Shown here: positions 6,201 through 38,099 of the stretch, piece after piece | Layout of the letters: each line of letters opens with the position of its first letter | How positions within the stretch are numbered: the stretch's first letter is position 1 | Assembly (NCBI GenBank): GCA_947642455.1 | Contig: CANRSN010000017.1 | Location: forward strand, 1 to 45,744 | Length of the DNA stretch: 45,744 bases | From: an uncultured Clostridiaceae bacterium | GTDB taxonomy: Bacteria > Bacillota > Clostridia > TANB77 > CAG-508 | Direction: 5' to 3' | The notes under the pieces: model-generated | What the model was told of the DNA's origin: nothing | Databases searched by the model: none | Seen by the model: only the letters and a program-made list of their open reading frames with translations | Made by a program: the position numbers and the translations under genes

Positions 6201-8123
6201 AAATTTATCAATAACTTCTCCATTTTTTACTTTCATAACACCTATTTCTGTAATTTTTTCTGTTCTAAATGAAAGACCTGTCGTCTCTAAGTCTAATACA
6301 CAATATGTTGAATTTTCAATGTTTTGATTTTTTGAAAATGATACTGGGCTTTTTTCATCTGGCACTAAATATGCTTCAACACCATAAATAATTTTCATAT
6401 CTGGATTATCATATCCTAATAATTTGTGTGCTTCTGGAAATGCTTGTACAACACCATGGTCAGTAATTGCAATTGATTTCATTCCCCACTTCATTGCTCT
6501 TTTTATTAAATCTGTAGCAGATGTTACTCCATCCATTTGACTCATTTGTGTGTGCATATGTAGCTCTACCCTCTTCTCAGAAGACTCATCCATTCTTACT
6601 TCTCTTTTTATTCCTGTACTTTCTACTATTGTTTTTGCCATAATTGTAATTTCATTTTCAAATGTATCCATCTCAGCTTTTCCAGCAATTTTTACGCCTT
6701 TTGCTTTTTTTAACTTTCCTATTACTTTTTTACTTGTATCTTTTGGAATAAATGCTTTACAAATTATACTATTTGTTCCATCATATATACCCATTTTTAA
6801 AAGTACAGAACCTTTTTTTTCTTCATCTTCTATAAATATTACTTCTCCATCTATATATACCATTCCTGTGTCTACACCTATATCTGCTATTTTTATAAAT
6901 TTTTCTTTAATTTCTGGATTCATTCCATATATTAATGGCGAATTCTCGTCATCTGTTGGAAGTTTTGGAAAATCTTCTCCATTTACTTCTATAATAGTAT
7001 TTACCATTACAGTAACATCTCCTACAAAATTATCCAAACTTGCTTTTCCTATTGTTTTAATCCCACTTGCATTTTTTATTTTATTTGCTATCTCATTTCC
7101 TTCTGCAATATCTTTTGCAAAAGATTTACATAACATAATTCCTGTACCATCATATATTTCAAATTTTATCATACCTTTTCCAGTTTTTGTTTCTCTACAT
7201 TCACAACTTGCTACTCTTCCTTCTAAGGTAATTCTGGTATTTTCTGCTGTTATATCTTTTATTTTTACTTTTCTTTCTTTTGCTTTTGTTGGCTTTCCTA
7301 ATATATAATCTTTTTCTTGCTCCATTTCTTCTAGTTCTTTTAGATATTCTTCTTGCTCTTCTCCTCCAAAATATGAATCATCTATTGGAGGAGCTGGAAA
7401 ATTTGGTATATCTTGACTTTTATGACTTTGCACTCTTTCTTGTTTACTATCTACTACATTATGTTCCTTAGCTTCTACCATATTTTCCTCTTTTTCTGGG
7501 TGTTTAAGTTCATTATCTTTTTCTAAATTTTCCATTACTTGTTCTTGCATTTTTCTTGCATATTCTTGATATTTTTGGAGGTCTTCTACTGTTACATTTT
7601 CTACAATATTTACTTTATATTTTATTTCATATGTGTTATATAAAAATTCTGATATGACTTCTTCATATTTGTGTGCTATTAAAAAATTTTTCCCTTTCTG
7701 TGCAAGAACTATATTTGCCAAATTATTGTCTATTGTTATTTCACTATCTTCCAATATTGCTCTTGCCATAGGGTGTTTTAGTGATACATAGTCAATAATT
7801 TCTTTCCATTCTTTTTGTATTATAGTCTCTACTTCTAAAAGCTCTGTTTTATCACAATTGCTTTCATTTGTGATTTGCTCAACTTTATTAATATTATCTA
7901 TTTTTATTTTTACAGTATCTATTAAAAATCTAGCACTTAAATACCTTTCTAAACCTTCTATATCTCTAACCTTTATATATTTTTCTGTTAATAACTCTAT
8001 TTTTAAAGTATTTGTTTTTTTATATAATTCTATAAATTTTATTTTTGCATTTAATAATTCTTGACTATATGTCTTATAATCTTTAAATACTTCTTTTAAA
8101 GTTTTGTATTCTGCTTCATTCAT
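3249..8123 (-). CDS. polC: DNA polymerase III alpha subunit, PolC type, with two OB-like modules
   Basis: Encodes 1624 residues, longer than the roughly 1440 usual for PolC. It is the replicative polymerase of low-GC Gram-positive bacteria. Order of parts: N-terminal domain (1-200), an acidic, Lys/Glu-rich linker (200-280), two OB-like modules (about 285-382 and 405-505), PHP domain beginning VELHMHTQMSQMDGV (519), an inserted DEDDh proofreading exonuclease (606-775, with CVLDLETTG, AHNAEFD and HRALDDVD), the rest of PHP, a zinc finger (CPEC at 1094 and CPKCG at 1118), and the polymerase core with EPDIDLNFSGEY (1145-1156). Both OB-like modules contain the pattern (F/M)xIYDGT..I.CK.F, which suggests a tandem duplication. 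The start ATG follows GGGGGTAGAG. It is the last gene of the pyrH-polC block. Confidence 0.97.
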   Translation of the reverse strand: MNEAEYKTLKEVFKDYKTYSQELLNAKIKFIELYKKTNTLKIELLTEKYIKVRDIEGLERYLSARFLIDTVKIKIDNINKVEQITNESNCDKTELLEVETIIQKEWKEIIDYVSLKHPMARAILEDSEITIDNNLANIVLAQKGKNFLIAHKYEEVISEFLYNTYEIKYKVNIVENVTVEDLQKYQEYARKMQEQVMENLEKDNELKHPEKEENMVEAKEHNVVDSKQERVQSHKSQDIPNFPAPPIDDSYFGGEEQEEYLKELEEMEQEKDYILGKPTKAKERKVKIKDITAENTRITLEGRVASCECRETKTGKGMIKFEIYDGTGIMLCKSFAKDIAEGNEIANKIKNASGIKTIGKASLDNFVGDVTVMVNTIIEVNGEDFPKLPTDDENSPLIYGMNPEIKEKFIKIADIGVDTGMVYIDGEVIFIEDEEKKGSVLLKMGIYDGTNSIICKAFIPKDTSKKVIGKLKKAKGVKIAGKAEMDTFENEITIMAKTIVESTGIKREVRMDESSEKRVELHMHTQMSQMDGVTSATDLIKRAMKWGMKSIAITDHGVVQAFPEAHKLLGYDNPDMKIIYGVEAYLVPDEKSPVSFSKNQNIENSTYCVLDLETTGLSFRTEKITEIGVMKVKNGEVIDKFSCFVNPEKPIPPKVVEVTNITDDMVKDAETIEQVMPKLLEFLGDSVLVAHNAEFDIGFLKHNASELGYTLNNTYMDTLALAKILFPDFKKYKLGIIADKLGIKVEVAHRALDDVDTTVKVLRVMFDILKEKNIKSLDDMEILLDTKNNYKKLPSYHAIILAKNYTGLKNLYKLVSFSHIQYFYKKPRILKSLYKKYSEGLILGSACEAGELYRAIVAGKSDEEVEEIAKGYDYLEIQPVGNNMYMVRNGTLPDARAIEDINMKIVDLGEKLGKPVVATCDVHFIDPQDEIYRRILMAGQGYDDADEQAPLYLRTTEEMLKEFEYLGKEKAYEVVVTNTNKISDMCEAISPISKEKCPPHIDGCEQTIKDIAYKKAHELYGDPLPEIVEDRLSKELESIIKNGFSVMYIIAQKLVWKSNEDGYIVGSRGSVGSSFAAYATGITEVNSLPPHYRCPECKYSDFTDYGYQCGFDLPDKDCPKCGHKMVKDGIDIPFETFLGFNGDKEPDIDLNFSGEYQAKAHKYTEVIFGKGTTFKAGTVGTVADKTAFGYVKKYYEERGIPVSNAEVIRIAQGCTGIKRTTGQHPGGIIVVPKGREIYEFTPIQHPADDPESDITTTHFDYHSIDQNLLKLDILGHDDPTMIRMLQDLTGIDPTKVPLDDKETMSIFSSTDALGVTSEQIKSEVGSYGIPEFGTKFVRGMLVDTKPTTFDELIRISGLSHGTDVWLGNAQSLIEEGTVTLNEAICCRDDIMIYLIKKGVPPNPAFKIMETVRKGKALKDPEKWAEYVALMKENNVPDWYIKSCEKIKYMFPKAHAAAYVTNAFRIAWFKVHQPKAYYTAYFTIRADEFDSDVMCYGKEKVKNKMKEIDIAGKSATTKDKNMYAILELVLEMYERGINFLPIDLYKSHSTKFRIEEDGIRPPLNSIPGLGTVAAEGIELAKKDGKFMSIDDMRIRSKIGKTVVELLEKVGCLKGMSQSNQMSLFG

Positions 8124-8198
8124 TTCTCTACCCCCAAAACCATATTTTAATGTAATATAAACTGTTTGTATATTTTAAAAAGATATTTATTATTTTAT

Positions 8199-9458
8199 TT
8201 ATATTACCCTCCGTATTCTTAATATATCATTATAAGCAACTACAATTGAGATTGTAATTAATAATGCAAAACCAACTAATTGTATATTTATTTCTGTTTT
8301 CTCACTTAATTTTTTTCTGCGTATAGCTTCTATTAACAAAAGTAATAATTTTCCACCATCTAAGGCTGGTATAGGTAATAAATTAGTTACTCCCAATGAC
8401 AATGAAATTAAAGCTAATATATAGATAAAATCGGCTACTTCATTTGTTTTTGCTACCATTTCAGATATACCTACTGGTCCCATCAATTGGTTCATTCTTA
8501 CATTTCCAGTAAATAACATTTTTAAATTATCTATTATTGAAAAACCAAAATCTCTAGTTTCAAAAACTGCATAATATAAGTTGTTAGGCAAATTATCTTC
8601 TGCTTTTCTAAAATATACTCCTAAATAGTAGTTATTCAATACTTCTGGTGTTAATTTTATTGATACTTCACTTTCTCCTCTTTTTAGTAAAAAAGTAAGT
8701 TCTTCTTCTCTATTTATTATATCTACAACATCTTGACCATTATTAACTTGTATATCATTTATTTTTAAAATAACATCATTTGCCTGTATTCCAGCTTTCT
8801 CAGCAATGCTATTTGCTGCAACTGTAAGTATTTTGGTCGTCTCCCCTGAGCCTTTTAAATAAATACCTGTATTTTTATATTCTTTTTTTGTTGGTGTTAA
8901 TTTTAATTCCTCTAGATTACCATTTCTTTTTACTGTTAATGTTATTTCTTCTCCATTTGATTTTTCTAATATTTTATTAATATCATTCTTTATATTTACA
9001 GTGTTATTGTTTATTTTTATAATTTCATCATTTGCCATAACTCCTGCTACTTCTGCTGCATAATTTTCAATTGTACCATCTACAATTAATGATGTATTAT
9101 TTCCCATACATGCCATTAATACAAAATATACAACTAATGCAAAAATAATATTTACTATTCCGCCAGCTGCTACAATTGCCATTCTTTTTGGTATACTTGC
9201 TTCACTAAAAGAACCTTCTTCTCCAGAACGTTCTTCTTCTCCTTCCATTCTCACAAATCCACCTAATGGAATAAGCCTTAATGCGTATTTAGTAACCTTT
9301 CCTTGCTTTCTCCAAATAGTAGGTCCAAATCCTATTGCAAATTCATTGACCTTTACTTTACATAGCTTTGCTACAAAGAAATGACCTGCTTCATGTATTA
9401 ATATTAAAAATCCTAATAAAAATATTATTTTCAATGCTGTTATTAAAAAACTAATCAA
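8199..9458 (-). CDS. rseP: site-2 intramembrane zinc protease RseP/RasP
   Basis: Encodes 419 residues. This membrane protease cuts anti-sigma factors and signal-peptide remnants within the membrane. The zinc motif HEAGHF is near residue 22 in the first helix, and the second metal motif appears as LPIPALDGG near residue 365. Two PDZ-like regions lie between (about 105-205 and 210-285, with NTGIYLKGSG and IAEKAGIQANDVIL). Three further helices complete the protein. The start codon is TTG at 9458, six bases after a full AAGGAGG, so the call is firm. It sits between cdsA and polC; dxr, often found before it, is absent. Confidence 0.95.
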   Translation of the reverse strand: MISFLITALKIIFLLGFLILIHEAGHFFVAKLCKVKVNEFAIGFGPTIWRKQGKVTKYALRLIPLGGFVRMEGEEERSGEEGSFSEASIPKRMAIVAAGGIVNIIFALVVYFVLMACMGNNTSLIVDGTIENYAAEVAGVMANDEIIKINNNTVNIKNDINKILEKSNGEEITLTVKRNGNLEELKLTPTKKEYKNTGIYLKGSGETTKILTVAANSIAEKAGIQANDVILKINDIQVNNGQDVVDIINREEELTFLLKRGESEVSIKLTPEVLNNYYLGVYFRKAEDNLPNNLYYAVFETRDFGFSIIDNLKMLFTGNVRMNQLMGPVGISEMVAKTNEVADFIYILALISLSLGVTNLLPIPALDGGKLLLLLIEAIRRKKLSEKTEINIQLVGFALLITISIVVAYNDILRIRRVI

Positions 9459-9526
9459 TTTTTTCCTCCTTATATGAATAAATGGAAAACCTTAATAAAA
9501 GTTTATTTCCACTATTTGTTTTATGC

Positions 9527-10330
9527 TTACAACATCCTAAACATTGCATATGCAAATGGTGCTATAAAAAGCAAACTATCTATTCTGTCTAACATTCCTC
9601 CATGTCCTGGAATTAAATTACTATAATCTTTTATATCCACAAATCGTTTTATACTTGATGCTGCAAAATCACCTATTTGACCTATAAAACTTAATGCAAT
9701 ACCTATTAATCCCATTATTAAAAGTGAATAATTCATTGAGCAAAAAGAATTTATAATATATGTATAACCAAGTGTTAATACAAGAGCTCCTAGTGCTCCA
9801 CCAATACAACCCTCTATCGATTTTTTTGGGCTTACTTTACTAAATTTATGTTTTCCAAATAATTTCCCTGCAAAAAAGGCAAAAATGTCAGTTCCCCAAG
9901 CTGCAATAATTATATACCATATTAAAATATTACCATTTGGCATTCCATCAACAAAAGCTACAAACATCATAAAAAATACTATATAACATATACCTAAAAA
10001 TGTAAAAGCTATATCTTTAAAATCTGTTTTCATATCTGATGCAATTATTTGCGAAAATAGCAATAATAAAATTGTTGGAACAGAAAGAGTTACTATTATT
10101 TGTAACCATTCTGGTGGTATTATATGTATAAAAGCTATACTTATACAGCAAATATAGCCTACCCATTTTACAGGTTTTGATACTTTTGACACTGCATTAA
10201 AATATTCATTTAAACTTAAATAAGCTATAACTGTTAGTGCTACATCTACTACATATTTATTTTGTATTAGTAAAATTATTAACACAATTGGAAACCATAA
10301 TAATGCTGATGTTACTCTTTTTATATCCAT
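9527..10330 (-). CDS. cdsA: phosphatidate cytidylyltransferase
   Basis: Encodes about 267 residues. It makes CDP-diacylglycerol from phosphatidate and CTP for phospholipid synthesis at the membrane. About eight hydrophobic helices are visible. The C-terminal signature is present: KKSIEGCIGG, then KRFVDIKDYSNLIPGHGGMLDRIDS near the end. I prefer the ATG at 10330 (MDIKRVTSALL), which follows AAAGAGAG, over the upstream ATG at 10354, which has no ribosome site. It follows uppS by about 55 bases, as in many Firmicutes. Confidence 0.95.
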   Translation of the reverse strand: MDIKRVTSALLWFPIVLIILLIQNKYVVDVALTVIAYLSLNEYFNAVSKVSKPVKWVGYICCISIAFIHIIPPEWLQIIVTLSVPTILLLLFSQIIASDMKTDFKDIAFTFLGICYIVFFMMFVAFVDGMPNGNILIWYIIIAAWGTDIFAFFAGKLFGKHKFSKVSPKKSIEGCIGGALGALVLTLGYTYIINSFCSMNYSLLIMGLIGIALSFIGQIGDFAASSIKRFVDIKDYSNLIPGHGGMLDRIDSLLFIAPFAYAMFRML

Positions 10331-12715: not shown

Positions 12716-12789
12716 ATTTTTTTCATATATATTTATATAATTTTTGAGCAAACTAATTATATGAAAATTTATAAGGATTGAAAAGAGTT

Positions 12790-13449
12790 ATGAATCAAAT
12801 ATTAAATTTTAATGATAATAGTCCTAATTCTTCTAAAAAAGGCTATGATTTTTTAAAAAATTATAAAACTATATTTTTATTTTCTATAATTATATGTATT
12901 ATTTCAATTATTATTTATTTTTTCATAAGATATAATATGGATAAAAATGACAAACTCTCTAAAGAATTAGCAAACAACTTCTCTCTTTCTACATTATACT
13001 CTAATTCAATAGGAGAATATTCTACTCAGAAATTAGAAGAAATTACTACAAAAAGAGAGCCTTTTGTAATAGGATTAATTGAAATTGAAAAAATTAAATT
13101 AATATATCCAATATTGTCTGAAACTACTACAGAACTTTTAAAACTTTCTCCATGTAGATATGTTGGACCTATGCCTAATGAACCTGGAAACTTATGTATT
13201 GCAGGTCATAACTATGTTGATAATAAATTATTTAGTAAACTTAATATTTTGAAAAATGGGGATATTATAAAAATTTATGATTTAACTGGTAACTGTCTTC
13301 AATATTCTGTTTTTGAAATAAAAGAAGTTCCTTCTACTGACACTTCTTGTACTTCCCAAAACAATGATAACAATAGATATGTTACTCTTATAACATGTAA
13401 TAATGTAAATGGATTACGACTTATTGTAAAATGTAAAAATATTACTTAA
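12790..13449 (+). CDS. sortase
   Basis: Encodes about 219 residues. Sortases cut LPXTG-like signals and link the protein to the cell wall. An N-terminal membrane anchor (about residues 30-48) is followed by a linker and the catalytic domain. The catalytic His lies in CIAGHNY, the Cys in TLITC and the Arg in GLRLIV, in the correct order. I prefer the ATG at 12790 (MNQILNF) over the TTG at 12778, which touches its own AAGGA. It converges with a small LPQTG gene 276 bases away, a plausible substrate. The subclass (D or E) cannot be settled by eye. Confidence 0.9.
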   Translation: MNQILNFNDNSPNSSKKGYDFLKNYKTIFLFSIIICIISIIIYFFIRYNMDKNDKLSKELANNFSLSTLYSNSIGEYSTQKLEEITTKREPFVIGLIEIEKIKLIYPILSETTTELLKLSPCRYVGPMPNEPGNLCIAGHNYVDNKLFSKLNILKNGDIIKIYDLTGNCLQYSVFEIKEVPSTDTSCTSQNNDNNRYVTLITCNNVNGLRLIVKCKNIT

Positions 13450-27970: not shown

Positions 27971-28213
27971 GCTTAGTGTGTAGCAAAAAGAGTACAATTT
28001 GTTACAATTCATAGATATTAAGTATCTATGTAGGCAATATAATATTTATTTTTAGAAGTTTTGCGCAGGGAAGCTCCCACAGCGGACATGACCCAGAGCT
28101 ACCCACGAAGCCAGTAAAAAACTTCGACAAAATAAATATTATATTGCCTATTGGCTTCTAATTTTCAAACTATGAATTGTAACAAATTGTACTCTTTTTT
28201 GCTGTTCAGTGTG
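27971..28213. mobile_element. palindromic MITE-like element, copy E, nearly full
   Basis: The ends are TAGCAAAAAGAGTACAATTT at 27981 and its complement ending GCT at 28203, with one A missing on the left. Outside lie GCTTAGTGTG (27971-27980) and GTTCAGTGTG (28204-28213), an 8-of-10 match that fits a decayed target duplication. The core at 28063-28117 begins GCGCAGGGAAGCTCCC and matches copy A in about 49 of 55 bases. It is closed by GAAGTTTT/AAAACTTC, where copy A has CAAAGTTTT/AAAACTTTG. The stop codon of the minus-strand gene that ends at 28206 lies in the right duplication. Confidence 0.85.
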
Positions 28214-29417
28214 TTTTTCTACGTTTATATATAATTACTAAAATTACAATTATAGTAAAAACAATTATACCACCAATAATAAAAGCAAAATTATTTTCTT
28301 GTTGTATGATATCTCCACTAATTTGTGTTTCATTTTGGTTTTGTTCTAAAATAGCAGAGAGTTTTTGTGCCTGAGCTTTTTGCTCTTCCTTATTTTGAAG
28401 CTCTTCTACTTCATTTCTTTTATATGCTATTATTTCATATTTTTTAATAGTAATACCATCACTTGCAGAAACAACAACTTCAATTTTATTCTCTCCTACT
28501 TTTATATTCTCATTTCCGCTAACCTTTACTATTGCATTTTGTTTTTGAGGAATAGCCAAAATATCTAATTTATCCACATTATTTGCTACTTCTATAAAAT
28601 ATTTAGTAATATTAAAATCAAAAGGTGGAGTTAACATACCTTGCCTTACTGCTAAGTTTTCTAAATTTGCATTTGCCATTTCTATATTTTTAGTTTTTGT
28701 TATATATATTTTATATATCTCTACTTTTGTTTTGTCTTTTGACTGAACTTCTATATTTATAGTATTAGACCCCATTTTAAAATTAGTATTTCCTGTTATT
28801 ATAACATTTGCATCTTTACTTTCTGGAATAGCTGTTACCTCTAAACTATTTATATTATCATCAGCAACAAAATAATATTCTTTTATATTTTTATCAAAAT
28901 CTGGACTAATTCCTTCATGATTTAATCGTAAAACTTTCAAATCTGCATTATCAGGTGAAGTTTCTGGTTGCTCACTCTCATTTGCTTCTACTTCAATTTT
29001 CCCTATTTGTAATTCTATATTGCCATTATTTATTTCTATTTTTTCGCCATTTTCATTATAAAATTCTCCTGTAACTATAAAACCTGTTTTTCCTTCTTCA
29101 ATTCCTTTAAATACAAAACTTCCTATATCTATTTCTCTTACATTTTGACCAGTACTACTTACCCAAGTATATAAAATTTTATTATCTACTTTGTTTGAAT
29201 TCTCTGGTCCTTTTACATACTCTAACTTTGTATTATCCCAATATATTTCCATTGTAAAAGTGGCTACAAAAGTATCTTTAATATTTACTATTACTTCTAC
29301 TTCTTCATCTTTTTCTATAATAGTTTTATTTAATATTATTTGCATATCAGACTGTGCAAGGCATACACTAAAACTTACACACAAAATTAGAATTCCTAAA
29401 ACTATAATTCTTTTCAT
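28206..29417 (-). CDS. membrane-anchored cohesin-like protein with two cadherin-like domains
   Basis: Encodes 403 residues. A signal peptide (about 1-21) is followed by a cohesin-like beta domain (24-142; EIYWDNTKLEYVKGP and GSFVFKGIEEGKTGF are typical cohesin strands), two cadherin-like beta-sandwich domains of the PF12733 type (about 157-240 and 245-332, each with LEVTAIPESKDANVII or LDILAIPQKQNAIVKV), a Gln/Glu-rich linker and a C-terminal membrane helix (about 378-396) with KRRKTH inside. It is thus held on the outer membrane face. It lies 71 bases downstream of a dockerin-bearing glucosaminidase and probably displays it. Cohesin is inferred from pattern, not from a profile search. Confidence 0.8.
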   Translation of the reverse strand: MKRIIVLGILILCVSFSVCLAQSDMQIILNKTIIEKDEEVEVIVNIKDTFVATFTMEIYWDNTKLEYVKGPENSNKVDNKILYTWVSSTGQNVREIDIGSFVFKGIEEGKTGFIVTGEFYNENGEKIEINNGNIELQIGKIEVEANESEQPETSPDNADLKVLRLNHEGISPDFDKNIKEYYFVADDNINSLEVTAIPESKDANVIITGNTNFKMGSNTINIEVQSKDKTKVEIYKIYITKTKNIEMANANLENLAVRQGMLTPPFDFNITKYFIEVANNVDKLDILAIPQKQNAIVKVSGNENIKVGENKIEVVVSASDGITIKKYEIIAYKRNEVEELQNKEEQKAQAQKLSAILEQNQNETQISGDIIQQENNFAFIIGGIIVFTIIVILVIIYKRRKTH

Positions 29418-29488
29418 AAAGCTTCTCTTCCCCTTTCCCTAAATTCTCACACATTAAATCTTACTAGAAAATTTAAACAGTATTAGCT

Positions 29489-31732
29489 TTATTGTTCTAT
29501 AAACTTAATTTCTAAAATATGTCTTTGTATTAATAGTGAATCTAATGAAGATGGATTTTTTCCATTTTTATTAATATTTCCTGCTTTTAAAAATACTCCA
29601 TTTAACATTTCTATTTCTAATATATGTCTTTGCAATACTAATAAATCTGAACTATTAATTTTACCATCTGCATTTACATCTCCATATATAATAGTTATAT
29701 ATTCCATTTTTATTACATCATTTTCATCTATTAATCTGATTTTACTTCCTGTTGTTATAATTTGCTCATCTGTCAATAATTCTCCTTTATTACTATATAT
29801 TTCTATATTATATTTACTATTTATTTTCTTTTTTATTTCTACTGATTTCAAATTTTCAATATCAAAACCTGTAATTTCATTTTCATCTACTTTCAAACCT
29901 TCTTCAAATATTACATCACCTTCTTCAAGTTTTGGAACAACTAAAACTTCTACTTCTTTGCTTATTCCTTCGTCTTGAGTAGTTAATATAATTTTTGCCT
30001 TTCCTTCATTTACTGTTGTTATAGTCCCTAAATTATCAACATTTATAATATTTACATTACTTGATTCATATTTTATATTCATATTACTTGCATCACTTGG
30101 TATAATAATAGGTTTTAATATATAACTATCACCCATTTGCAATGTTAAACTTTCTATACCAAGTTGTAAATCTGTTACAGGTGTATATACTTGTATATCA
30201 ATACTTCCAGAAACATCATTTTCTTTAGATTTTACTGTAATAGCTGTTTTCCCTGATCTAATCCCCATTATATTTCCACTACTATCTATACTTGCAATTC
30301 CACTATTGCTTGAACTATATTCTACTTCATTATCTTTTGCTTCTTCTGGTAAAATCTGTACATTTAACTTTTTAACTTCTCCTTTTTTTATGACAGGATT
30401 GTCAATAGATACATTTATTTGTTCTATTTGTCTTTTTGGAACTTCTTTCAGATAATTTTGGAAAACATACCCTATCATTCCATTTGGTAGTCTCACTCTA
30501 TCCCATAGTTCCCCTGATTGCTTACCTTTAGCAATTCTAGTCATTGTAACTGTTCTATCTATAGATGTTAATACTTCATATGAAGTAGATGGTCCTGATC
30601 TTACATTTAATGTATTTATTACATCTGCATACACCTGCGTATCATCTAAAGAAAAATCGCTTTCCAAAATATTAGGACTTTCCATTGGAACTCTTGGCAT
30701 ATTATTATATACTGGAATTATAAAAGACATTGAACTATCAAGAATTCCAGTATTTGCATACCCATTATATATTGACCTAGACTCACTATATGGAGCCAAT
30801 ACATTCGTCATATACTGATGCCAAAATAATTGACCACCACTACTACTAGTTACATGAAATTTTTGTAAATAAACTGTATCTTGTCCTAAATGTATATAAC
30901 TTGAACCAATAAAAATTCCTCCTCCTGTTATTGCCTTATTTTTGTCATTCCATGGAATCAAATATTTATCTTTAGTAGCCTGACTTGCTCCTTTACCATC
31001 TTTAGCATATTGTAATCCATTTCTTATAGCCCCATTTGGCTCTGCTGAACTTGTCGCTCCAATATTATAAAAATTGTAATATCCTTCAAAACCAGGTACT
31101 CTTCCACTAATTGAACTATGTGACAAAAAAGGTCCTACTTCTTGTTTTATTCTTGATGCTAAATGATAACTACTTACTCTTGAATTTACTCCAGCTGACA
31201 AAATCAAATCTGAATATTTATTTGTCATTGTTATATTATTTCCACTACTATCAACATATTCTACAATCCTATTATAAAATTCAGTTCCATACAAAATTTT
31301 CTCAATACCATCTATGTTATTAGTCTTTTCATCATATGATAAACTTTCAAATTGAAATATTCTAACTTCATTTAAAAAATTTCTTGGATCCATACAATAT
31401 TCAACCGCTCTTCTAGAAGAATCTACCCATCCTGAATCTACTTCTACATTATATTTGTCTGGATCAGTATTTTTCCACCTATCTGAATATGATTTTGGTA
31501 CTAAATTTTTCCCAAAAATATTTTCATTATTTATTACATATGTCCAATCTAAATTAGTATATAATGCTGTAAATTTCCAATTTGGATGTCTTTTTTGCAA
31601 TTCATATAAATATGGTCTATAACTTTCAGGAAAACTCTCTATCCCCTCTCTTCTGTCATCTGCTAAAACTTTACTATTTATTAATATAATTGCTACAAAT
31701 ATAATAAATACAAAGATTTTTTTATATTTCAT
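29489..31732 (-). CDS. secreted glucosaminidase with SH3, Big_2 and dockerin domains
   Basis: Encodes about 747 residues from the ATG at 31732 (MKYKKIFVFIIF, a signal peptide). Positions below count from an upstream ATG-like codon 10 residues earlier. A GH73-type N-acetylglucosaminidase domain covers about 45-355 (HPNWKFTALYTNLDW, DPRNFLNE, HLASRIKQEVG with the likely catalytic Glu, YYNFYNIGA). Then SH3b (377-440, LNVRSGPSTSYEVL), two Big_2 domains (447-525 and 527-608), a small beta module and a type I dockerin (693-755: GDVNADGKINSSDLLVLQRH, then a degenerate second repeat NINKNGKNPSSLDSLLIQRH). It should cut peptidoglycan while docked on a cohesin protein. The next gene downstream encodes such a protein. 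Confidence 0.88.
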   Translation of the reverse strand: MKYKKIFVFIIFVAIILINSKVLADDRREGIESFPESYRPYLYELQKRHPNWKFTALYTNLDWTYVINNENIFGKNLVPKSYSDRWKNTDPDKYNVEVDSGWVDSSRRAVEYCMDPRNFLNEVRIFQFESLSYDEKTNNIDGIEKILYGTEFYNRIVEYVDSSGNNITMTNKYSDLILSAGVNSRVSSYHLASRIKQEVGPFLSHSSISGRVPGFEGYYNFYNIGATSSAEPNGAIRNGLQYAKDGKGASQATKDKYLIPWNDKNKAITGGGIFIGSSYIHLGQDTVYLQKFHVTSSSGGQLFWHQYMTNVLAPYSESRSIYNGYANTGILDSSMSFIIPVYNNMPRVPMESPNILESDFSLDDTQVYADVINTLNVRSGPSTSYEVLTSIDRTVTMTRIAKGKQSGELWDRVRLPNGMIGYVFQNYLKEVPKRQIEQINVSIDNPVIKKGEVKKLNVQILPEEAKDNEVEYSSSNSGIASIDSSGNIMGIRSGKTAITVKSKENDVSGSIDIQVYTPVTDLQLGIESLTLQMGDSYILKPIIIPSDASNMNIKYESSNVNIINVDNLGTITTVNEGKAKIILTTQDEGISKEVEVLVVPKLEEGDVIFEEGLKVDENEITGFDIENLKSVEIKKKINSKYNIEIYSNKGELLTDEQIITTGSKIRLIDENDVIKMEYITIIYGDVNADGKINSSDLLVLQRHILEIEMLNGVFLKAGNINKNGKNPSSLDSLLIQRHILEIKFIEQ

Positions 31733-31784
31733 ATTTAATATCATTCCTTCCTCAAGGCACAAATCTAGTTAAAAAAGATATATA

Positions 31785-32414
31785 CTACTCAATTCCTCTT
31801 GCTTGTACAATAAGCCTATTTCTTGAGTAATTTACACATGTTATTAAAGTAACTATTCTTTCCCCTTTTGTTTCTTGCTCTATAGGTGCTGTATTTTGTG
31901 GTTTAACTTTGTAAATGTCATATATAGCATAGGTTTTTTTTCCATTTATATTATCTGACAAATACAATTCATCCCCAATTTCTAAGTCTATTAAATGATT
32001 AAACATTCTTTCTTGTTCATAATTATGACCTGCTATACAAAAATTACCTATTTCATTTGGGCTTGGTCCCCAAAACTTAGAAACGCATACTTTCATTCCA
32101 TTTTCTTCATAATTTTCTAATACATATGTCTCTAATTTTATTTTTGGTATTTCCAATTTTGCTGAAACTTCAAATCCCTTATATGTTGACGGAATATCCA
32201 CTCTTTCTATAATTATAGGAATCTCCTGCTCTACTTTCTCTACTATAATATTTTGCGTTATCTCTGTTTTATTTTCCATTCTAAATTTATTTTCTTTATA
32301 TACTCCCATACCTATATTTACTATTATTCCTAAAATAAGTATTAATATTATAATTCTTATTTTTCTTATTATTTTCATTTTTTCCATTTTTCTTTTTAAT
32401 ATTCTTCTTCCCAT
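31785..32414 (-). CDS. sortase
   Basis: Encodes 209 residues. An N-terminal basic stretch and membrane helix (IIILILILGIIVNIGMG) precede the catalytic domain: LEIPKIKLETYVLE, GNFCIAGHNY with the catalytic His, TLITCVNYS with Cys and NRLIVQ with Arg. AGAGGAAAT precedes the ATG at 32414. It lies between an LPKTG cohesin-like protein upstream and a dockerin glucosaminidase downstream, so the LPKTG protein is its likely substrate. It resembles the sortase at 12790 in layout and motifs. Confidence 0.92.
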   Translation of the reverse strand: MGRRILKRKMEKMKIIRKIRIIILILILGIIVNIGMGVYKENKFRMENKTEITQNIIVEKVEQEIPIIIERVDIPSTYKGFEVSAKLEIPKIKLETYVLENYEENGMKVCVSKFWGPSPNEIGNFCIAGHNYEQERMFNHLIDLEIGDELYLSDNINGKKTYAIYDIYKVKPQNTAPIEQETKGERIVTLITCVNYSRNRLIVQARGIE

Positions 32415-32556
32415 AATATTTCCTCTTTCTATGTAACATACTAATTTTAAAAATTATAGCCTGAAATATATATAATTTACTTTGCATAACAAGTTAGTTA
32501 AAAATATTTCAATTCCTATACTTAACACATTATATATGTTTCAGGCAACTTAATAT

Positions 32557-33609
32557 TTATTTTTCCTTTTTCTTTAATAAAACATATGCAAATACTAATA
32601 TTGCCAATATTGGCATTACTATATAGTATACTGTATTACCTGTTTTTGGTAAGTTTTGTGGTTTGTTACTTGCTCCATTGTTTGTTGTATTTGTTCCACT
32701 TGTTGTAGGTGGTACATTATTTTGTATTGGTGGTGTGTTTTCTTGTGGTGGTGGTGTTTGTGTATGCTCTTCTTTTACTGGAACTGTAAACGTTTGGCTT
32801 GCAATTTCTGCATCTGAATTGTCTCTATCTATTATTTTCAATTTTATACTATAATCTCCTGCTACCGTAAATAAACCTCTAACATTTAATTCTTTTTTTA
32901 CATCTTTTCCACCAATTGAGTCTCCTGCTGCATCTCCCCATCCACTTTGTATAATGTCATGTTCTAGACCTTGTGTATCTGTTCCTAATAATTTTACAGT
33001 TGCACCTGCTGGAGTTGTTGCTTCTGCTAATATTCTTGTATGCTCATAATTTTTTCCTAATGGTGATGTTATTGCTATTTTCATATTTTTTTCTTCATTT
33101 TTTATAATTTCACCTTCATAAGTTAATGCTATTTTATAATCTTCATATATTGGTTCTACTGTTACATTTTTTATAATTGGTATTGTAATGTCATCATAAT
33201 TTACTGATGCATCTGGATTTGCTAGTCCTTCTGCTGTAATACTAAACTCTGTTGGATTTGATGTTATAATTCCTTGTTTTCCCTTAAATGTTATAGACAT
33301 GTTACTTCGTGGTGCTATTCCTCCTTGTTGATCATAATAGTATACTCTTACTTTCGTACCTGTGTCATTTGCTGTTCCACCTTCTGCAGAAACATATTCT
33401 AATAAATTATTGTCATATGCAATATCAAATGTATATGCTCCCAATTGTGTTCCAAATTCTATATTTACAGTCACATTTTCCTCTGGATGTACTATTTGTT
33501 TGTCCACCGTAATATCAATTGTGTCTAATGCTGCTGCATATGTTTTTATTGTAAATGTCATCATAAATAATATAATAAAAGCTGTGATAATGCTCACTAT
33601 TTTTTTCAT
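32557..33609 (-). CDS. LPKTG wall-anchored cohesin-like protein
   Basis: Encodes 350 residues. Signal peptide 1-26; cohesin-like domain about 28-155 (IDITVDKQIVHPEENVTVNI, AYTFDIAYDNNLLEYVSAEG, MSITFKGKQGI); a second beta domain 156-275; a Pro/Thr/Asn-rich spacer; the sorting signal NLPKTGNT, a membrane helix and KKKEK. AGGAGGAAAATT precedes the ATG. It would be covalently fixed to the wall by the sortase encoded next to it, offering a cohesin to the dockerin hydrolases of this cluster. The cohesin assignment rests on visible patterns only. Confidence 0.82.
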   Translation of the reverse strand: MKKIVSIITAFIILFMMTFTIKTYAAALDTIDITVDKQIVHPEENVTVNIEFGTQLGAYTFDIAYDNNLLEYVSAEGGTANDTGTKVRVYYYDQQGGIAPRSNMSITFKGKQGIITSNPTEFSITAEGLANPDASVNYDDITIPIIKNVTVEPIYEDYKIALTYEGEIIKNEEKNMKIAITSPLGKNYEHTRILAEATTPAGATVKLLGTDTQGLEHDIIQSGWGDAAGDSIGGKDVKKELNVRGLFTVAGDYSIKLKIIDRDNSDAEIASQTFTVPVKEEHTQTPPPQENTPPIQNNVPPTTSGTNTTNNGASNKPQNLPKTGNTVYYIVMPILAILVFAYVLLKKKEK

Positions 33610-33777
33610 AAAAATTTTCCTCCTTTTTTGTTTATAATACTATTATTTCTTTTTTTTGAATTTTTACGTTAGAAATTTTTAGGATTTTAGCATTTTTTTT
33701 CAAAATTTGAATTTATTATAATTACATTTATTTATGTTATAATTTTGACTATACTAAATTTGAAAGGAATGATTTAT

Positions 33778-34401
33778 ATGAAAGTTCTACTTGTTAATGG
33801 CAGCCCTCATAAAGAGGGATGCACTAACTTAGCTTTAGAAGAAGTATCAAAAATTTTAGAAAAAAACGATATTGAAACTGAAATTTTTTGGCTTGGTAAC
33901 AAACCTATTGGTGGTTGCATTGGTTGTAATCACTGTCTTAATACAAATAATAGATGCTTTATGGATGATAAAGTAAATGTTTTTTTAGATATGGTTCCTT
34001 CTGCAGATGGCTTTGTTTTTGGCAGTCCTGTTCATTTTGCAAGCTCTAGTGGAAATTTAACTTCTTTTTTAGATAGAGTCTTTTATGGGAGAGGAAATCT
34101 ATTTGCTGGAAAAGCTTTCGCTAGTGTTGTAAGTTGTAGAAGAGGTGGTGCAACTGCTACTTTTGATCAAATTAATAAATATGCTCTTATTAGTAATATG
34201 TTTGTTGTTGGAAGCTCTTATTGGAATCAAATTCATGGTACTAATAGACAAGAAGCTATGCAAGACTTAGAAGGTTTACAAACAATGCGAAATCTCGCAC
34301 AAAATATGTCTTATTTTCTAAAATGTACCAATTTTTCTCATTCTAATGGTATTAATAAACCTACTTATGAAAAATCTATTAAAACAAATTTTATTAGATA
34401 A
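33778..34401 (+). CDS. flavodoxin-like NAD(P)H-dependent FMN reductase
   Basis: Encodes about 207 residues of the flavodoxin fold. MKVLLVNGSPHKEGCTNLAL is the FMN phosphate-binding loop; GCIGCNHCLN is the Cys-rich stretch common to iron-sulfur flavoprotein-like members; GFVFGSPVHFASSSGNLTSFLDR is the second flavin site. The ATG at 33778 follows AAAGGA by 9 bases. It lies on the plus strand inside the minus-strand surface cluster and splits it, so it is probably an insertion unrelated to the wall proteins. Confidence 0.88.
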   Translation: MKVLLVNGSPHKEGCTNLALEEVSKILEKNDIETEIFWLGNKPIGGCIGCNHCLNTNNRCFMDDKVNVFLDMVPSADGFVFGSPVHFASSSGNLTSFLDRVFYGRGNLFAGKAFASVVSCRRGGATATFDQINKYALISNMFVVGSSYWNQIHGTNRQEAMQDLEGLQTMRNLAQNMSYFLKCTNFSHSNGINKPTYEKSIKTNFIR

Positions 34402-34435
34402 GAATAGTCTTCGTATAGAACAAAATAAGTCCTAT

Positions 34436-34478
34436 AAAAAAATAAGATAGATTTTTATGTATTCTATCTTATTTTTTT
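34436..34478. terminator. bidirectional terminator
   Basis: AAAAATAAGATAGA pairs with TCTATCTTATTTTT over an 11-base loop, with T-runs both ways. It separates the flavoprotein gene from the convergent surface gene ending at 34493. Confidence 0.85.
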
Positions 34479-34492
34479 GTAATTATTCAATT

Positions 34493-35827
34493 TTAAAAAT
34501 GTTTTCCTTTTTTTCTTTTGTCATCATCATCTTCTTCATTTATTCCTACTTCTTTATCATAATTAAATATTGTATTTTCTTCATCGTATAAATCATCTTC
34601 ATTTTTTCTAGCTCTTACTTTTAGTACTATTATTACTATTGTTATAACAATTATTAGACCTATTATTACAGCTAATGCTATATACATTATATCAATTTCA
34701 TTTTCACTATTTGTTTGCTCTGATACTTCTCCTAATGTTACAATAATTTGATATGTACATGTCTGTGAGCCATCTGCAGATTTTAATATGATTGTTACTA
34801 AGTTTTCATCACCTTCAAAATCTTCATTGCCTAATATTTCTACTGTTGCATCACTTTGATTTGCTATTGCTTCTATTTCCAATTTTCTTCCTGTTTCCAT
34901 ATGTATTTTGTATTCATATATATCTGGACTAAATACTGATGATATATCAGCACCTTTTATTTTCAATGATTTTAATTTTAATATTGCTGAATCATCAAAG
35001 TTTTCATCTACTATTCCTACCTCATTTGTTATTGTATTTGTTGTTATTTCATTTGATATTGTATTTGTTATCTCATTTGATATTGTATTTGCAACTGTGT
35101 TTGTATTGTTTTGAGGTTCTTCTGGTTGTGGTGCTGTTTTTGTTAATAACCTACTGCTAATATATGCAACTGCTCCTTTATATTGAACTCTACTCCAACC
35201 ATTATTGCCTACACCTGTTCTTACTATTGCTTCATCTTTTTTTAATGTTCCTACTACACTACTTCCATCTTCTGTTGAATCATATTTTCTAACATTTATA
35301 CTTCCTGTTGCATATACAGTTTCATTTACATCTGTATATTTCCCTTGTACTGATGTAACTTTTGGAGTAGTAGGTTTCTCTGAAGGCTTTTCTGTAGTTG
35401 AAGGTGGCTGTGTAGTAGTTGGTGGTGGTGTAACTGTTTTTGGATTTACTGTTACTGTTGATGTATTTGTAGTCCCATTTATATTAAATGATACTTTAAA
35501 TGTTTTTTTCTCTGTAACTTCTGGTGCTTTAAATGTATATGTTCCTAAAGTTGTATAGCCTCCAATTGTAGCTCCTGATAATTTTCCATTATTAACTATT
35601 ACAGTATTATCTACACCACTGCAACTTACAAATGTTAAACCAGAATACCCTGTAAGATTTGCATCAAAGTTTTCTATTTTTTCAGTAGAACTTATTGTTA
35701 TTGAAAAGGTTCCTCCTGATTCTACTGTAGGATCATTACTTCTATAACTTGCATTTACTTTTATTGTTAATATTCCTAAAATCAAAATTATAAGTATTGG
35801 TACTATTTTTAATATCTTTTTTCTCAT
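34493..35827 (-). CDS. membrane-anchored surface protein, cohesin-like, SH3 and cadherin-like domains
   Basis: Encodes 444 residues. A signal peptide (1-26) is followed by a short cohesin- or Ig-like beta domain (about 27-128), a Pro/Thr linker, an SH3b domain (about 165-230, SINVRKYDSTEDGSSVVGTL), an Asn/Thr-rich repeat linker (NTISNEITNTISNEI), a cadherin-like beta-sandwich (283-370), a membrane helix (377-405) and an acidic-then-basic cytoplasmic tail (DDDDKRKKGKHF). It lies 79 bases after a dockerin glucosaminidase gene, the same arrangement as at 28206-31732. Its first domain is shorter than a normal cohesin, so that label is less sure. Confidence 0.75.
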   Translation of the reverse strand: MRKKILKIVPILIILILGILTIKVNASYRSNDPTVESGGTFSITISSTEKIENFDANLTGYSGLTFVSCSGVDNTVIVNNGKLSGATIGGYTTLGTYTFKAPEVTEKKTFKVSFNINGTTNTSTVTVNPKTVTPPPTTTQPPSTTEKPSEKPTTPKVTSVQGKYTDVNETVYATGSINVRKYDSTEDGSSVVGTLKKDEAIVRTGVGNNGWSRVQYKGAVAYISSRLLTKTAPQPEEPQNNTNTVANTISNEITNTISNEITTNTITNEVGIVDENFDDSAILKLKSLKIKGADISSVFSPDIYEYKIHMETGRKLEIEAIANQSDATVEILGNEDFEGDENLVTIILKSADGSQTCTYQIIVTLGEVSEQTNSENEIDIMYIALAVIIGLIIVITIVIIVLKVRARKNEDDLYDEENTIFNYDKEVGINEEDDDDKRKKGKHF

Positions 35828-35906
35828 ATTTAATTACATTCCTTTCTTAAGACATAAATGGTTGGAAAAAAATTGTAATTCTTTTTCAACCTTTTATTCT
35901 CCATTC

Positions 35907-38099
35907 TTATAATGCTATTTGTGAAAGTCCAACTGCCTTTTTTAAAACAAGTAAGGCATCTGCTGAATTTACTTTTCCATCTTTATTGGTGTCCATTGCT
36001 TCTAAATATTCATTTGTTTTATTTATCATTTGAACACTTTGTTTTAAAATATCTAAAGCATCTGCTGAATTTACTCTTCCATCTCCATTTGTGTCACCAT
36101 ATTTTACAACTGTATATTCCTTTTTGTCTATAGTAACTTTATAACCAGTTCCTATATTTCCTGTTTCTACAACTTTACCTTTACTATCTTTAATTACAAT
36201 ATTTTTTCCAGCATTTTTCCCTTTTACATATTCTATTGTTAGATCTGGTGTACCTATTAATTTTTCTTCTTCTATTTTAAATTCTTCTATCTTTTCTACT
36301 TCAGTTGGTGGTGTAGGTGTGTTACTTTGTACTACTTCAATGTATGCTCCTGAACTATCTCCTCTTGCTATATATCCTGTTATACCATCAGATGTAACAA
36401 TTTTGTCCCAAACATATCCATTTGCTCTTGATACATCTTTTTGTATTCTTGTTACAACTTCACCTTTATTTAAGTACTTAGACATGGTTTTGTCTGTGCC
36501 TGGTGCTGACCTCACTTTTAATCCAGATGGACAAATTACCTTTACTAATTCTGAACCATTATTTGTATTTGTTCCTCCATTAGAGGCATTTAAGTAGTTC
36601 CTTGCAACATAGCCCTTTTTCCCATCTGATAAGACTACTCTATCCCATATATAGCCATTTAAGTTATATTTTCCTTGTTCTATTCTTGTACAAGCCTGCC
36701 CTTCAACTAAAGTAGTAACAACTATAGTTCCATCTGTTCCTGGACCATTTCTTAAATTAACTGCTGTATTGGCTATGACTGAGTCATTACAATTTGTAAC
36801 ATCTGCAATATTTACAATATAACTACGTGCAATATACCCTTTTTGACCATTTGGTAAAACTACTTTATCCCAATAGTATCCACCTTGAGTTGAGGTTGCC
36901 ACTTCTATTTTTAATAAAACATCACCTGTATTTACTGTTGCAATAGCCCTTGAAGATGAGCTTTTTCCTTCTCTTACATTAACATTAGTACCTTTTACTT
37001 TTACATCTTGTGTAACTATTGTATCTGAACCTGGTTGTGCACATGCTGTAGTTGGCATGTTTTCATATACTGGAATTATAAAATCTATACTTGCATTTAG
37101 TAAACCTAAACTATTATATGAATTTCTTGCTCTTGTACCTTCACTTTTTGATGCAGAAACATTTTGCATATATTGGTGGTAAAACATAATTCCATCTGTA
37201 TTGTCTACATCAAATTTTTGTAAATATGCTGTATCTTGTCCTTTTGAAATATACCCTTCTGCTATAAATTTAGCTCCATATTTTATTGATTTTTCAGGAT
37301 CTGTTAATCCATTATTTTTTGCACGAGTTAATCCATTTTGTATTACTTGTGCTTCCCCATTTCCTGAAGCTCCTATATTGAAAAAATTATAATAACCTAC
37401 AAATCCAGGATATGTACCTCTTGCAAGAACTCCTGGTGTATTGCCAACACCTTGTTCTTGCCTTATTCTCGCTGCTAAATGATATGGACTTACATTTGCC
37501 TCTTTTGCAGTTTCCATTATTACTTGTGCATATGATTTATTAATTGTTCCTGTTTTTCCATCTGTTTTTGTATATGTAATAGTGTTTCCTTGCATATACC
37601 CTACATCACTTAAGATCTTTTTTACACCTTCTATTGTTTGTATACTTTCATTAAATGATAATGCCTCAAATTGAAAAACATAATCTTCATTTAAAGAATT
37701 TCTTGGATCCATATAATAACTTATTGTTGCCTCTGATGCACATTTCCAACCTGTATCATAGCTTTTATTTCCACATACTGAACACACCCAAGCTCCTGTT
37801 TTGCTAGATGAAACTAAGTTTCTTCCATGTGTAGCTTCATTTTTTATTACTTGATTCCAATCTAACCCTGTATATAAAATTCTAAAATTCCAGTTTGGAT
37901 GACTCGCCTTTAGTTTATTAATTAATTCTGCATAACCTGGATAGTTATTTATTTTGTCTGATAAATTCTCTCTTGTTTGTGTGACTGCATATACATTATT
38001 ACAATTAATAAGGTTAATTATTAAATAAGATATTATTGTTAATATTGCTATTATACTTACTATTTTACTTATATTTAATAATCTGCTTGTATTTTTCAA
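35907..38099 (-). CDS. secreted glucosaminidase with three SH3 domains and a dockerin
   Basis: Encodes 730 residues. Signal/anchor segment 1-39; GH73-like N-acetylglucosaminidase about 55-350 (HPNWNFRILYTGLDW, DPRNSLNE, HLAARIRQEQG with the likely catalytic Glu 215, YYNFFNIGA). Three SH3b domains follow (about 364-428, 440-504 and 518-580). A small beta module (612-665) precedes a type I dockerin with two good calcium repeats, DTNGDGRVNSADALDILKQS and DTNKDGKVNSADALLVLKKA. A cluster CSVCG...WKC near 106-120 is unusual for an extracellular enzyme. It should cut peptidoglycan and bind a cohesin, presumably one of this cluster. Confidence 0.88.
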   Translation of the reverse strand: MKNTSRLLNISKIVSIIAILTIISYLIINLINCNNVYAVTQTRENLSDKINNYPGYAELINKLKASHPNWNFRILYTGLDWNQVIKNEATHGRNLVSSSKTGAWVCSVCGNKSYDTGWKCASEATISYYMDPRNSLNEDYVFQFEALSFNESIQTIEGVKKILSDVGYMQGNTITYTKTDGKTGTINKSYAQVIMETAKEANVSPYHLAARIRQEQGVGNTPGVLARGTYPGFVGYYNFFNIGASGNGEAQVIQNGLTRAKNNGLTDPEKSIKYGAKFIAEGYISKGQDTAYLQKFDVDNTDGIMFYHQYMQNVSASKSEGTRARNSYNSLGLLNASIDFIIPVYENMPTTACAQPGSDTIVTQDVKVKGTNVNVREGKSSSSRAIATVNTGDVLLKIEVATSTQGGYYWDKVVLPNGQKGYIARSYIVNIADVTNCNDSVIANTAVNLRNGPGTDGTIVVTTLVEGQACTRIEQGKYNLNGYIWDRVVLSDGKKGYVARNYLNASNGGTNTNNGSELVKVICPSGLKVRSAPGTDKTMSKYLNKGEVVTRIQKDVSRANGYVWDKIVTSDGITGYIARGDSSGAYIEVVQSNTPTPPTEVEKIEEFKIEEEKLIGTPDLTIEYVKGKNAGKNIVIKDSKGKVVETGNIGTGYKVTIDKKEYTVVKYGDTNGDGRVNSADALDILKQSVQMINKTNEYLEAMDTNKDGKVNSADALLVLKKAVGLSQIAL

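Follow-up and report, generated by a model that had tools for sequence, protein, structure and literature searches.

A dockerin and the anchor encoded beside it as a candidate exchangeable membrane tether for GH73-like autolysins in an uncultured Clostridiaceae bacterium

A stretch of 45,744 nucleotides from an uncultured Clostridiaceae bacterium (assembly GCA_947642455.1, contig CANRSN010000017.1), referred to here as the window, encodes two GH73-like enzymes that end in a dockerin. Each is followed on the same strand by a gene for a signal-peptide protein with a C-terminal membrane helix, as an earlier note on this DNA had described. In many relatives the same two genes stand side by side, and at one type of locus the dockerin of the enzyme and the outermost domain of the anchor (the N-domain) have been swapped jointly, with the remainder of both proteins kept. 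We propose that the two genes encode a tether that holds an autolysin at the membrane non-covalently, through a docking pair that can be exchanged, and from the sequence comparisons we put the probability of this reading at about 0.7. The parts of the two units are as follows.

35907..38099, minus strand: enzyme B, predicted GH73-like N-acetylglucosaminidase with a signal peptide, catalytic domain (residues 46-361), three SH3_3 domains and a C-terminal dockerin
35940..36101, minus strand: type I dockerin of enzyme B, whose two Ca-loop repeats have recognition helices that resemble each other, SADALDILKQSVQM / SADALLVLKKAVGL
34493..35827, minus strand: anchor C, with a signal peptide, an Ig-like N-domain (possibly a divergent cohesin), SH3_3 (below cut-off), one cadherin-like domain, a transmembrane helix and a cytosolic tail ending RKKGKHF
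35402..35758, minus strand: N-domain of anchor C (fragment aligned), swapped jointly with the dockerin in relatives
29489..31762, minus strand: enzyme A, predicted GH73-like N-acetylglucosaminidase with a catalytic domain, SH3_3, two Big_2 domains and a dockerin
29513..29686, minus strand: type I dockerin of enzyme A
28206..29417, minus strand: anchor A, with a signal peptide, a predicted cohesin (residues 23-143), two cadherin-like domains (PF12733), a transmembrane helix and a short tail

The gene order is kept in relatives. Most of these are metagenome-assembled genomes that carry the label Clostridia, Clostridiaceae, Lachnospiraceae, Oscillospiraceae or Bacilli, and several come from ruminant gut sections; their loci carry L-numbers (for example L172), and G000 denotes the genome of the window (2.2 Mb in 85 contigs, completeness 100, contamination 5.63). 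A local profile (E ≤ 1e-30, at least 330 residues, exact duplicates removed) yielded 136 distinct GH73-like frames, 9 of which are cut by contig ends. Counted as an anchor was a protein on the same strand with a cohesin match and a membrane helix, or with a cadherin-like domain and a membrane helix, preceded by 110 residues or more. A full anchor follows 80 of the 92 uncut frames with a C-terminal dockerin, versus 4 of the 35 without one. The remaining dockerin-bearing frames precede a short anchor lacking the N-domain (2) or neither kind (10); of the latter, L079 breaks off within the gene that follows, and the candidates in L196, L216 and L133 fall short of the cut-offs. The other frames without a C-terminal dockerin have a short anchor (3) or neither (28). 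Three of the four dockerin-less enzymes with a full anchor end in PF12733 instead, and 9 of the 28 are copies of enzyme A whose dockerin lies in the next frame, past a CGG site. In L139, L203 and L206, a dockerin-less enzyme adjoins an anchor that has no N-domain. Since the species share ancestry, these counts are not independent.

At the type of locus to which enzyme B and anchor C belong (35907/34493 type), the anchors of close relatives have similar linkers and membrane parts and unrelated N-domains. Between L172 and L217, identity is 94% in the catalytic domain, 32% in the dockerin, 22% in the N-domain, 99-100% in the cadherin-like domains and 100% in the tail. The DNA of L174 and L176, profiled in 100-base steps, is 96-100% identical up to ~250 bases ahead of the dockerin. 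Identity drops to 74-85% immediately ahead of the dockerin, is 54-62% inside it and 46-68% where the second gene starts and encodes its N-domain, and then recovers to 89-94% in the linker and 96-100% over all that remains, beginning with the first cadherin-like domain. A similar DNA pattern is seen among L172, L217 and L221. For each of these three, dockerin and N-domain have their nearest neighbour in common, each time a third species: L168 for L172 (dockerin 0.69, N-domain 0.60, catalytic domain 0.42), L180 for L217 (0.83 and 0.61, though only 0.39 in the catalytic domain) and L219 for L221 (0.80, 0.66 and 0.60); the corresponding values for L204 and L206 are 0.80, 0.73 and 0.44. The swap examples keep their open frames, and in the best of them both domains match one third species, which speaks against chimeric contigs.

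The same coupling is seen when all 58 genes of this type are compared. Nearest neighbours by dockerin and by N-domain coincide for 29 of them, including 8 in sister pairs (by eye) with a catalytic identity of at least 0.91. Among 35 gene pairs with a catalytic identity of at least 0.75, six have dockerins at 0.85 or above and N-domains at 0.65-0.99, and 29 have dockerins below 0.6 and N-domains at 0.22-0.45; none is intermediate. Eight pairs with a catalytic identity below 0.65 but a dockerin identity of at least 0.65 have N-domains at 0.45-0.73, the background being 0.27 (s.d. 0.05, maximum 0.50, 1505 pairs).

Although they belong to two genes, the dockerin and the N-domain covary nearly as one domain and skip the stretch between them. 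The partial Mantel correlation of the two, given the catalytic and anchor parts, is 0.52 for the 58 genes and 0.47 for all 83 (0/1000 permutations in each case). After thinning for near-duplicates (58 to 53 genes) and with segments of like length, the dockerin correlates with the first half of the N-domain at r = 0.41 ± 0.07, a value reached in 0 of 2000 permutations, and with the second half at 0.38 ± 0.07; the two N-domain halves correlate with each other at 0.46 ± 0.06, and the linker before the cadherin-like domain correlates with the dockerin at -0.02. It could be argued that a surface region under diversifying selection, by phage or host antibody, is simply replaced in one tract and that its two domains do not bind each other. 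The dockerin and the N-domain do adjoin in the DNA, where a single tract of ~1 kb can replace both. However, the module before the dockerin reaches only 0.25 ± 0.08 (range 0.13-0.25) and for the signal peptide that lies between the two domains the values are 0.10 (dockerin) and 0.07 (N-domain), noisy ones from 24 residues; all are far below 0.41, and the low covariation of the intervening peptide is contrary to plain linkage.

The dockerins themselves bear on the same question. Both C-terminal dockerins claimed in the earlier note exceed the cut-off of the Pfam family Dockerin_1 (PF00404), with E-values of 2.1e-9 for enzyme A and 3.3e-11 for enzyme B (37.9 and 43.6 bits; curated cut-off 22.9), and that of enzyme B also matches solved dockerins. 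The Asp at the first position of the Ca loop is retained in 79 of 83 dockerins of relatives. A motif rule parsed 49 of these 83; their two recognition helices, each of 14 residues, agree on average at 9.45 positions within one dockerin, versus 3.38 between dockerins (permutation maximum 4.63); SFDYIRIMNYIM, for example, occurs twice in L217 and PADSTVILR twice in L215. The helices are alike within a dockerin though they differ between dockerin types, a symmetry that in known cellulosomal dockerins accompanies dual-mode binding. As the two helices change in step, we argue that the varying residues form the surface that binds. There would be no need for a mere antigen to keep its Ca loops and change both helices together, and we regard replacement by linkage alone as unlikely.

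We therefore return to the tether and describe how it would operate. The first gene would yield a secreted GH73-like glucosaminidase with a C-terminal dockerin, and the second a single-pass membrane protein whose outermost domain, a cohesin or a cohesin-derived Ig-like domain, would be the private receptor of that dockerin. The exported enzyme would dock on this receptor without a covalent bond and be kept in reach of the inner face of the wall, where its cadherin-like and SH3 domains and those of the anchor would act as a spacer and touch the wall, and the cell's own wall would be cut locally, near the membrane. At the 35907/34493-type locus, homologous recombination would replace the 3' end of the first gene and the 5' start of the second jointly; a species would keep its enzyme and anchor, and the docking type would change. 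More tentatively, the docking pair could be a self-recognition code, through which a secreted wall-cutting enzyme would bind its own kind only and not neighbours, with diversity kept by selection; this we hold to be possible, at less than even odds.

That enzymes A and B are glucosaminidases, as the earlier note had it, is supported by homology, although the profile it had in mind, GH73 (PF01832), matched neither enzyme at E ≤ 1 in the Pfam scan. Enzyme B matches the solved chains of autolysin E (1.4e-9), an LYZ2 domain-containing protein (7.6e-8) and a bifunctional autolysin (1.1e-4), the last two of which we take to be SagB and AtlA of Staphylococcus aureus; its NCBIfam SagB match (7.2e-12) is below cut-off. 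A Glu aligned to a Glu of autolysin E, presumably the catalytic one, is kept in 138/138 family domains, those of the window included. Homology to the solved autolysin glucosaminidases and this conserved Glu identify both enzymes as GH73-like, and they are predicted to cut peptidoglycan. In one relative (L116:8894-12400), a GH73-like domain, a cohesin match (5.2e-9) and a dockerin form a natural fusion in a single frame.

The cohesin-like starts claimed for the anchors differ in how well they can be traced. For anchor B, an LPKTG protein encoded between the two units, the Pfam cohesin family (PF00963) gives 21.7 bits (E 2.4e-4) in hmmscan, under the cut-off of 24.1, and 24.5 bits, over it, in the genome search. 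Anchors A and C have no Pfam cohesin match at E ≤ 1, and NCBIfam and Pfam alone name neither a cohesin. A profile of the five Pfam-validated cohesin domains of this genome likewise finds anchor B (9.2e-4) and neither anchor A nor anchor C, and one of 20 relatives' cohesin domains, with no window rows, finds anchor A (2.2e-35) and anchor B (4.1e-13) and not anchor C. The alignment of anchor A with these 20 domains, built from DNA references only, matches the solved cohesins of scaffoldin adaptor protein B (6.4e-9) and NagJ (3.2e-5) in the PDB and scores 97.5% over 117 columns against the five validated cohesins; another match of anchor A (1.9e-30) came from an iterated profile that possibly contains anchor A itself. 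The outer domains of anchor B and, via relatives, of anchor A are accordingly assigned as cohesins by profile.

Anchor C starts with an Ig-like domain, which is probably a divergent cohesin. The six largest N-domain types of the 34493-type anchors cover 36 of the 58 genes. Against a clean cohesin alignment, the type of anchor C itself (9 sequences) scores 87.7% over 78 columns and four others 95.5-96.6% over 99-107 columns; as controls, Big_2 scores 66.4% over only 27 columns and the cadherin-like domain 1.8% over 23. Against a cohesin alignment that was typed partly by hand, the six types had scored 93.9-97.6% and one control 45.5%. Further along the proteins, cadherin-like domains had been proposed for both anchors: anchor A has two PF12733 stretches (2.7e-15), and anchor C has a single one, which has no Pfam match at E ≤ 1 and is found by a local profile (3.9e-24) with anchor C among its seeds.

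Several observations weigh against the tether. One of the six N-domain types reaches just 49.6% against the clean cohesin alignment, and the pooled 34493-type profile retrieves mixed Ig-like folds from the PDB and 'autonomous cohesin' only at E 0.12 and 0.51, which led us to lower the cohesin claim for anchor C; the assignment of this N-domain type is indirect, via intermediate profiles. Nearest neighbours by dockerin and by N-domain differ for 29 of the 58 genes. In the 25 cohesin-match loci, which include the window unit of enzyme A and anchor A, r is just 0.16 (29/1000 permutations) and no swapping was seen. Six dockerin enzymes (L096, L103, L106, L114, L126 and L138) have no adjoining anchor, and four dockerin-less ones (L110, L117, L131 and L132) do have one; in L168, most of the N-domain of anchor A is gone and its enzyme retains the dockerin, and one dockerin enzyme of L201 adjoins an anchor without an N-domain. 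The named loci with full units are, judging by their titles, metagenome assemblies of related species, with one genome per species. The reading of the earlier note, in which cohesin-dockerin pairing tethers the enzymes, is thus partly borne out: dockerin enzymes adjoin membrane-anchored cohesin-type proteins in many species, and dockerin and N-domain covary at the 35907/34493 type more than their flanks account for. The binding itself is putative, as are a cohesin fold in 34493-35827 and a role of the LPKTG cohesin and sortase with the same enzyme.

The genome as a whole could also be taken to encode a wider, cellulosome-like surface complex, in which anchored cohesins accept any of ~20 dockerin proteins and the hydrolases are some of many clients. 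Dockerin is matched 22 times in it at E ≤ 0.1 (17 over cut-off) and cohesin 9 times (6 over cut-off), and there are 10 sortase matches; its dockerin carriers include papain-like, transglutaminase-like, LRR and amidase proteins, and six proteins have one dockerin type in common. The dockerins of enzymes A and B, however, are unlike that common type and unlike each other, the covariation of dockerin and N-domain makes the coupling at the locus private, and no more than 1-3 dockerin matches per genome are found in 12 of 26 relatives from the same genus. Such a complex is in our view improbable as the explanation of the locus.

Other candidate display loci occur in the same genome. One (G000:C5:62960-68442, L143) encodes a sortase, a protein with a cohesin, four Big_2 domains and LPKTG, a dockerin protein and an Amidase_3 enzyme with a dockerin. 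An LPQTG cohesin adjoins a papain-like protease with a dockerin on contig C37 and a transglutaminase-like protein with a cohesin and a dockerin on contig C41, and neighbouring cohesin and dockerin genes are also found on C48, C1 and C5:94634-99294; some of the short contigs may be contaminants. In L201 an Amidase_3 enzyme with a dockerin (7323-8525) is followed by an anchor with an N-domain and two cadherin-like stretches (8535-9938). Amidase_3 dockerin enzymes near an anchor, or near a cohesin/LPKTG protein as in the window genome, suggest that the principle may extend beyond GH73.

The inner end of anchor C, RKKGKHF, has counterparts in GKHF, GRHF or GKHSK ends of related anchors, and its conservation suggests a cytosolic partner. 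That the anchor is mainly a sensor or regulator, reporting enzyme docking inwards through this tail, is very improbable: a GKHF end is present in 24 of 58 N-type anchors (by eye), but the tail is missing in L172, L217 and L221 (in the latter two there is a CGG site) and no such end is seen in the listed cohesin-match anchors.

On the minus strand, read 5' to 3', the genes of the window run enzyme B, anchor C, anchor B, sortase, enzyme A and anchor A, with gaps of 71 and 79 bases between enzyme and anchor and an RNase R gene upstream of the system. All five proteins of the earlier note are open frames at their positions; position 31732, which it gave as the start of enzyme A, is an internal ATG of the open frame 29489-31762. 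Between the two units lie the following genes.

33745..34401, plus strand: NADPH-dependent FMN reductase gene, thought to be outside the system
32557..33609, minus strand: anchor B, with a signal peptide, a predicted cohesin and an LPKTG wall-sorting signal
31785..32414, minus strand: sortase, over the Pfam cut-off (E 4.6e-24)

The LPKTG protein and sortase had been placed correctly between the enzymes. With its LPKTG end (TIGR01167, 17.5 bits; cut-off 15.9) and the sortase nearby, anchor B fits a sortase-dependent wall protein. A single specificity of this cohesin and that of anchor A was considered and is unsupported, the two types being 16-29% identical within one locus (20 loci). The LPKTG cohesin, sortase, enzyme A and type A cohesin are found together in the window and in a further 19 genomes, of which two belong to different genera of the family and 13 have an enzyme A gene that is split over frames. 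Both units stand side by side as in the window in L166, L167 and L168 (60 relative loci mapped). A second sortase gene of the window (12778-13449) lies apart from the display system.

The split enzyme A genes are part of a recurrent pattern of +1 frame changes at CGG, seen at two sites in the DNA as an additional C ahead of the GGA codon of relatives. In enzyme A it is found in L182, L183, L188, L213, L214, L216, L173, L175, L177, L179, L190, L193, L218, L220 and L222, and, beyond the two sites above, nine enzyme A frames all stop within 4-5 codons past CGGA; other genes of these and further loci show such changes too. As the breaks fall at CGG in several species and the frames are otherwise open, we set aside the interpretation of these genes as plain pseudogenes. 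When the two pieces were searched apart, junctions were confirmed for 43 of 429 candidates at CGGA, 22/341 for CGGT, 3/452 for CGGC and 0/248 for CGGG, many cases being duplicates across species; controls gave 12/274 for AGGT (the highest), 11/297 for TGGT, 11/338 for TGGA, 13/650 for AGAA and 1/301 for CGAA. The intact homologue has Gly at CGGN in 36 of 68 cases, Gln in 14 and Thr in 12, and CGGA is prominent at the ends of open reading frames (34/50, versus ~10% overall). No tRNA-Arg(CCG) was found among the 28 tRNA matches each in the window genome and G017, lists that are incomplete (no Ala or Ile tRNA). Both genomes have a second tRNA-Gly with UCCG, the complement of CGGA, in the anticodon loop and a mismatch in the stem; this arm occurs in 29 of 56 genomes, all of which belong to the window's family, represented by 36 genomes. 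CGGN may be decoded naturally as a four-base Gly codon, or an unassigned CGG may lead to +1 slippage; no frame change or decoding of this kind was found in the accessible passages of the full-text literature, PMC8629427 and PMC13092985 included.

How secreted wall hydrolases are kept where they are needed is a long-standing question in bacteria. Here the placing part would be separate from the cutting part, encoded next door and present in many natural docking types. Pairing rules become testable from sequence, and the loci offer a panel of possibly orthogonal dockerin/receptor pairs. They also raise the question of why species change the lock yet leave enzyme and anchor untouched.

Among known systems, S. 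aureus SagB acts as a glucosaminidase at the membrane with the membrane partner SpdC, and enzyme B has a SagB family match, below cut-off; unlike the enzymes described here, SagB carries a membrane anchor of its own and is not known to bear a dockerin. Cohesins outside cellulosomes are also known from NagJ-type proteins, whose chains are matched by our cohesin profile; in NagJ, in contrast to the present arrangement, the cohesin sits on the enzyme itself. Nor does the locus resemble a cellulosome in composition: each anchor has one cohesin, versus several per scaffoldin, and no cellulose-binding module or plant-wall enzyme was found among the window proteins of the finding and ten other proteins of the genome that were scanned. 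The earlier note knew of no standard description of the arrangement, which is broadly right, except that passages of a 2019 review describe dockerin-containing cell-wall hydrolases in cellulosomes and suggest a 'lyticome' (PMC6403190). Those enzymes too are peptidoglycan hydrolases with dockerins; in the account given there they are joined to scaffoldins, with no dedicated membrane receptor. Ruminococcus flavefaciens ScaE, an LPXTG protein, holds a dockerin partner through a sortase-linked surface cohesin, according to the relevant passages of PMC2930009. Compared with cellulosomes and ScaE, the likely target here is the cell's own wall, there is one enzyme per anchor, most anchors are in the membrane, the partner gene is next door and the docking type is swapped with the partner. 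Single-cohesin proteins of H. luporum and C. cibarium likewise combine a cohesin with a C-terminal membrane helix, and their partners are called unclear in the passages concerned (PMC11557425), whereas in the present case gene order and covariation point to a candidate partner. Neither a dedicated enzyme/anchor gene pair nor co-swapped docking types were found in the accessible passages of the full-text literature, a body that excludes most subscription papers and all preprints, and 'cadherin-like beta sandwich' occurs together with 'cohesin' in 0 papers of it. Dockerin-bearing wall hydrolases and single-cohesin membrane proteins are thus already known; the pairing of enzyme and anchor genes, with docking types that are swapped together, is apparently new.

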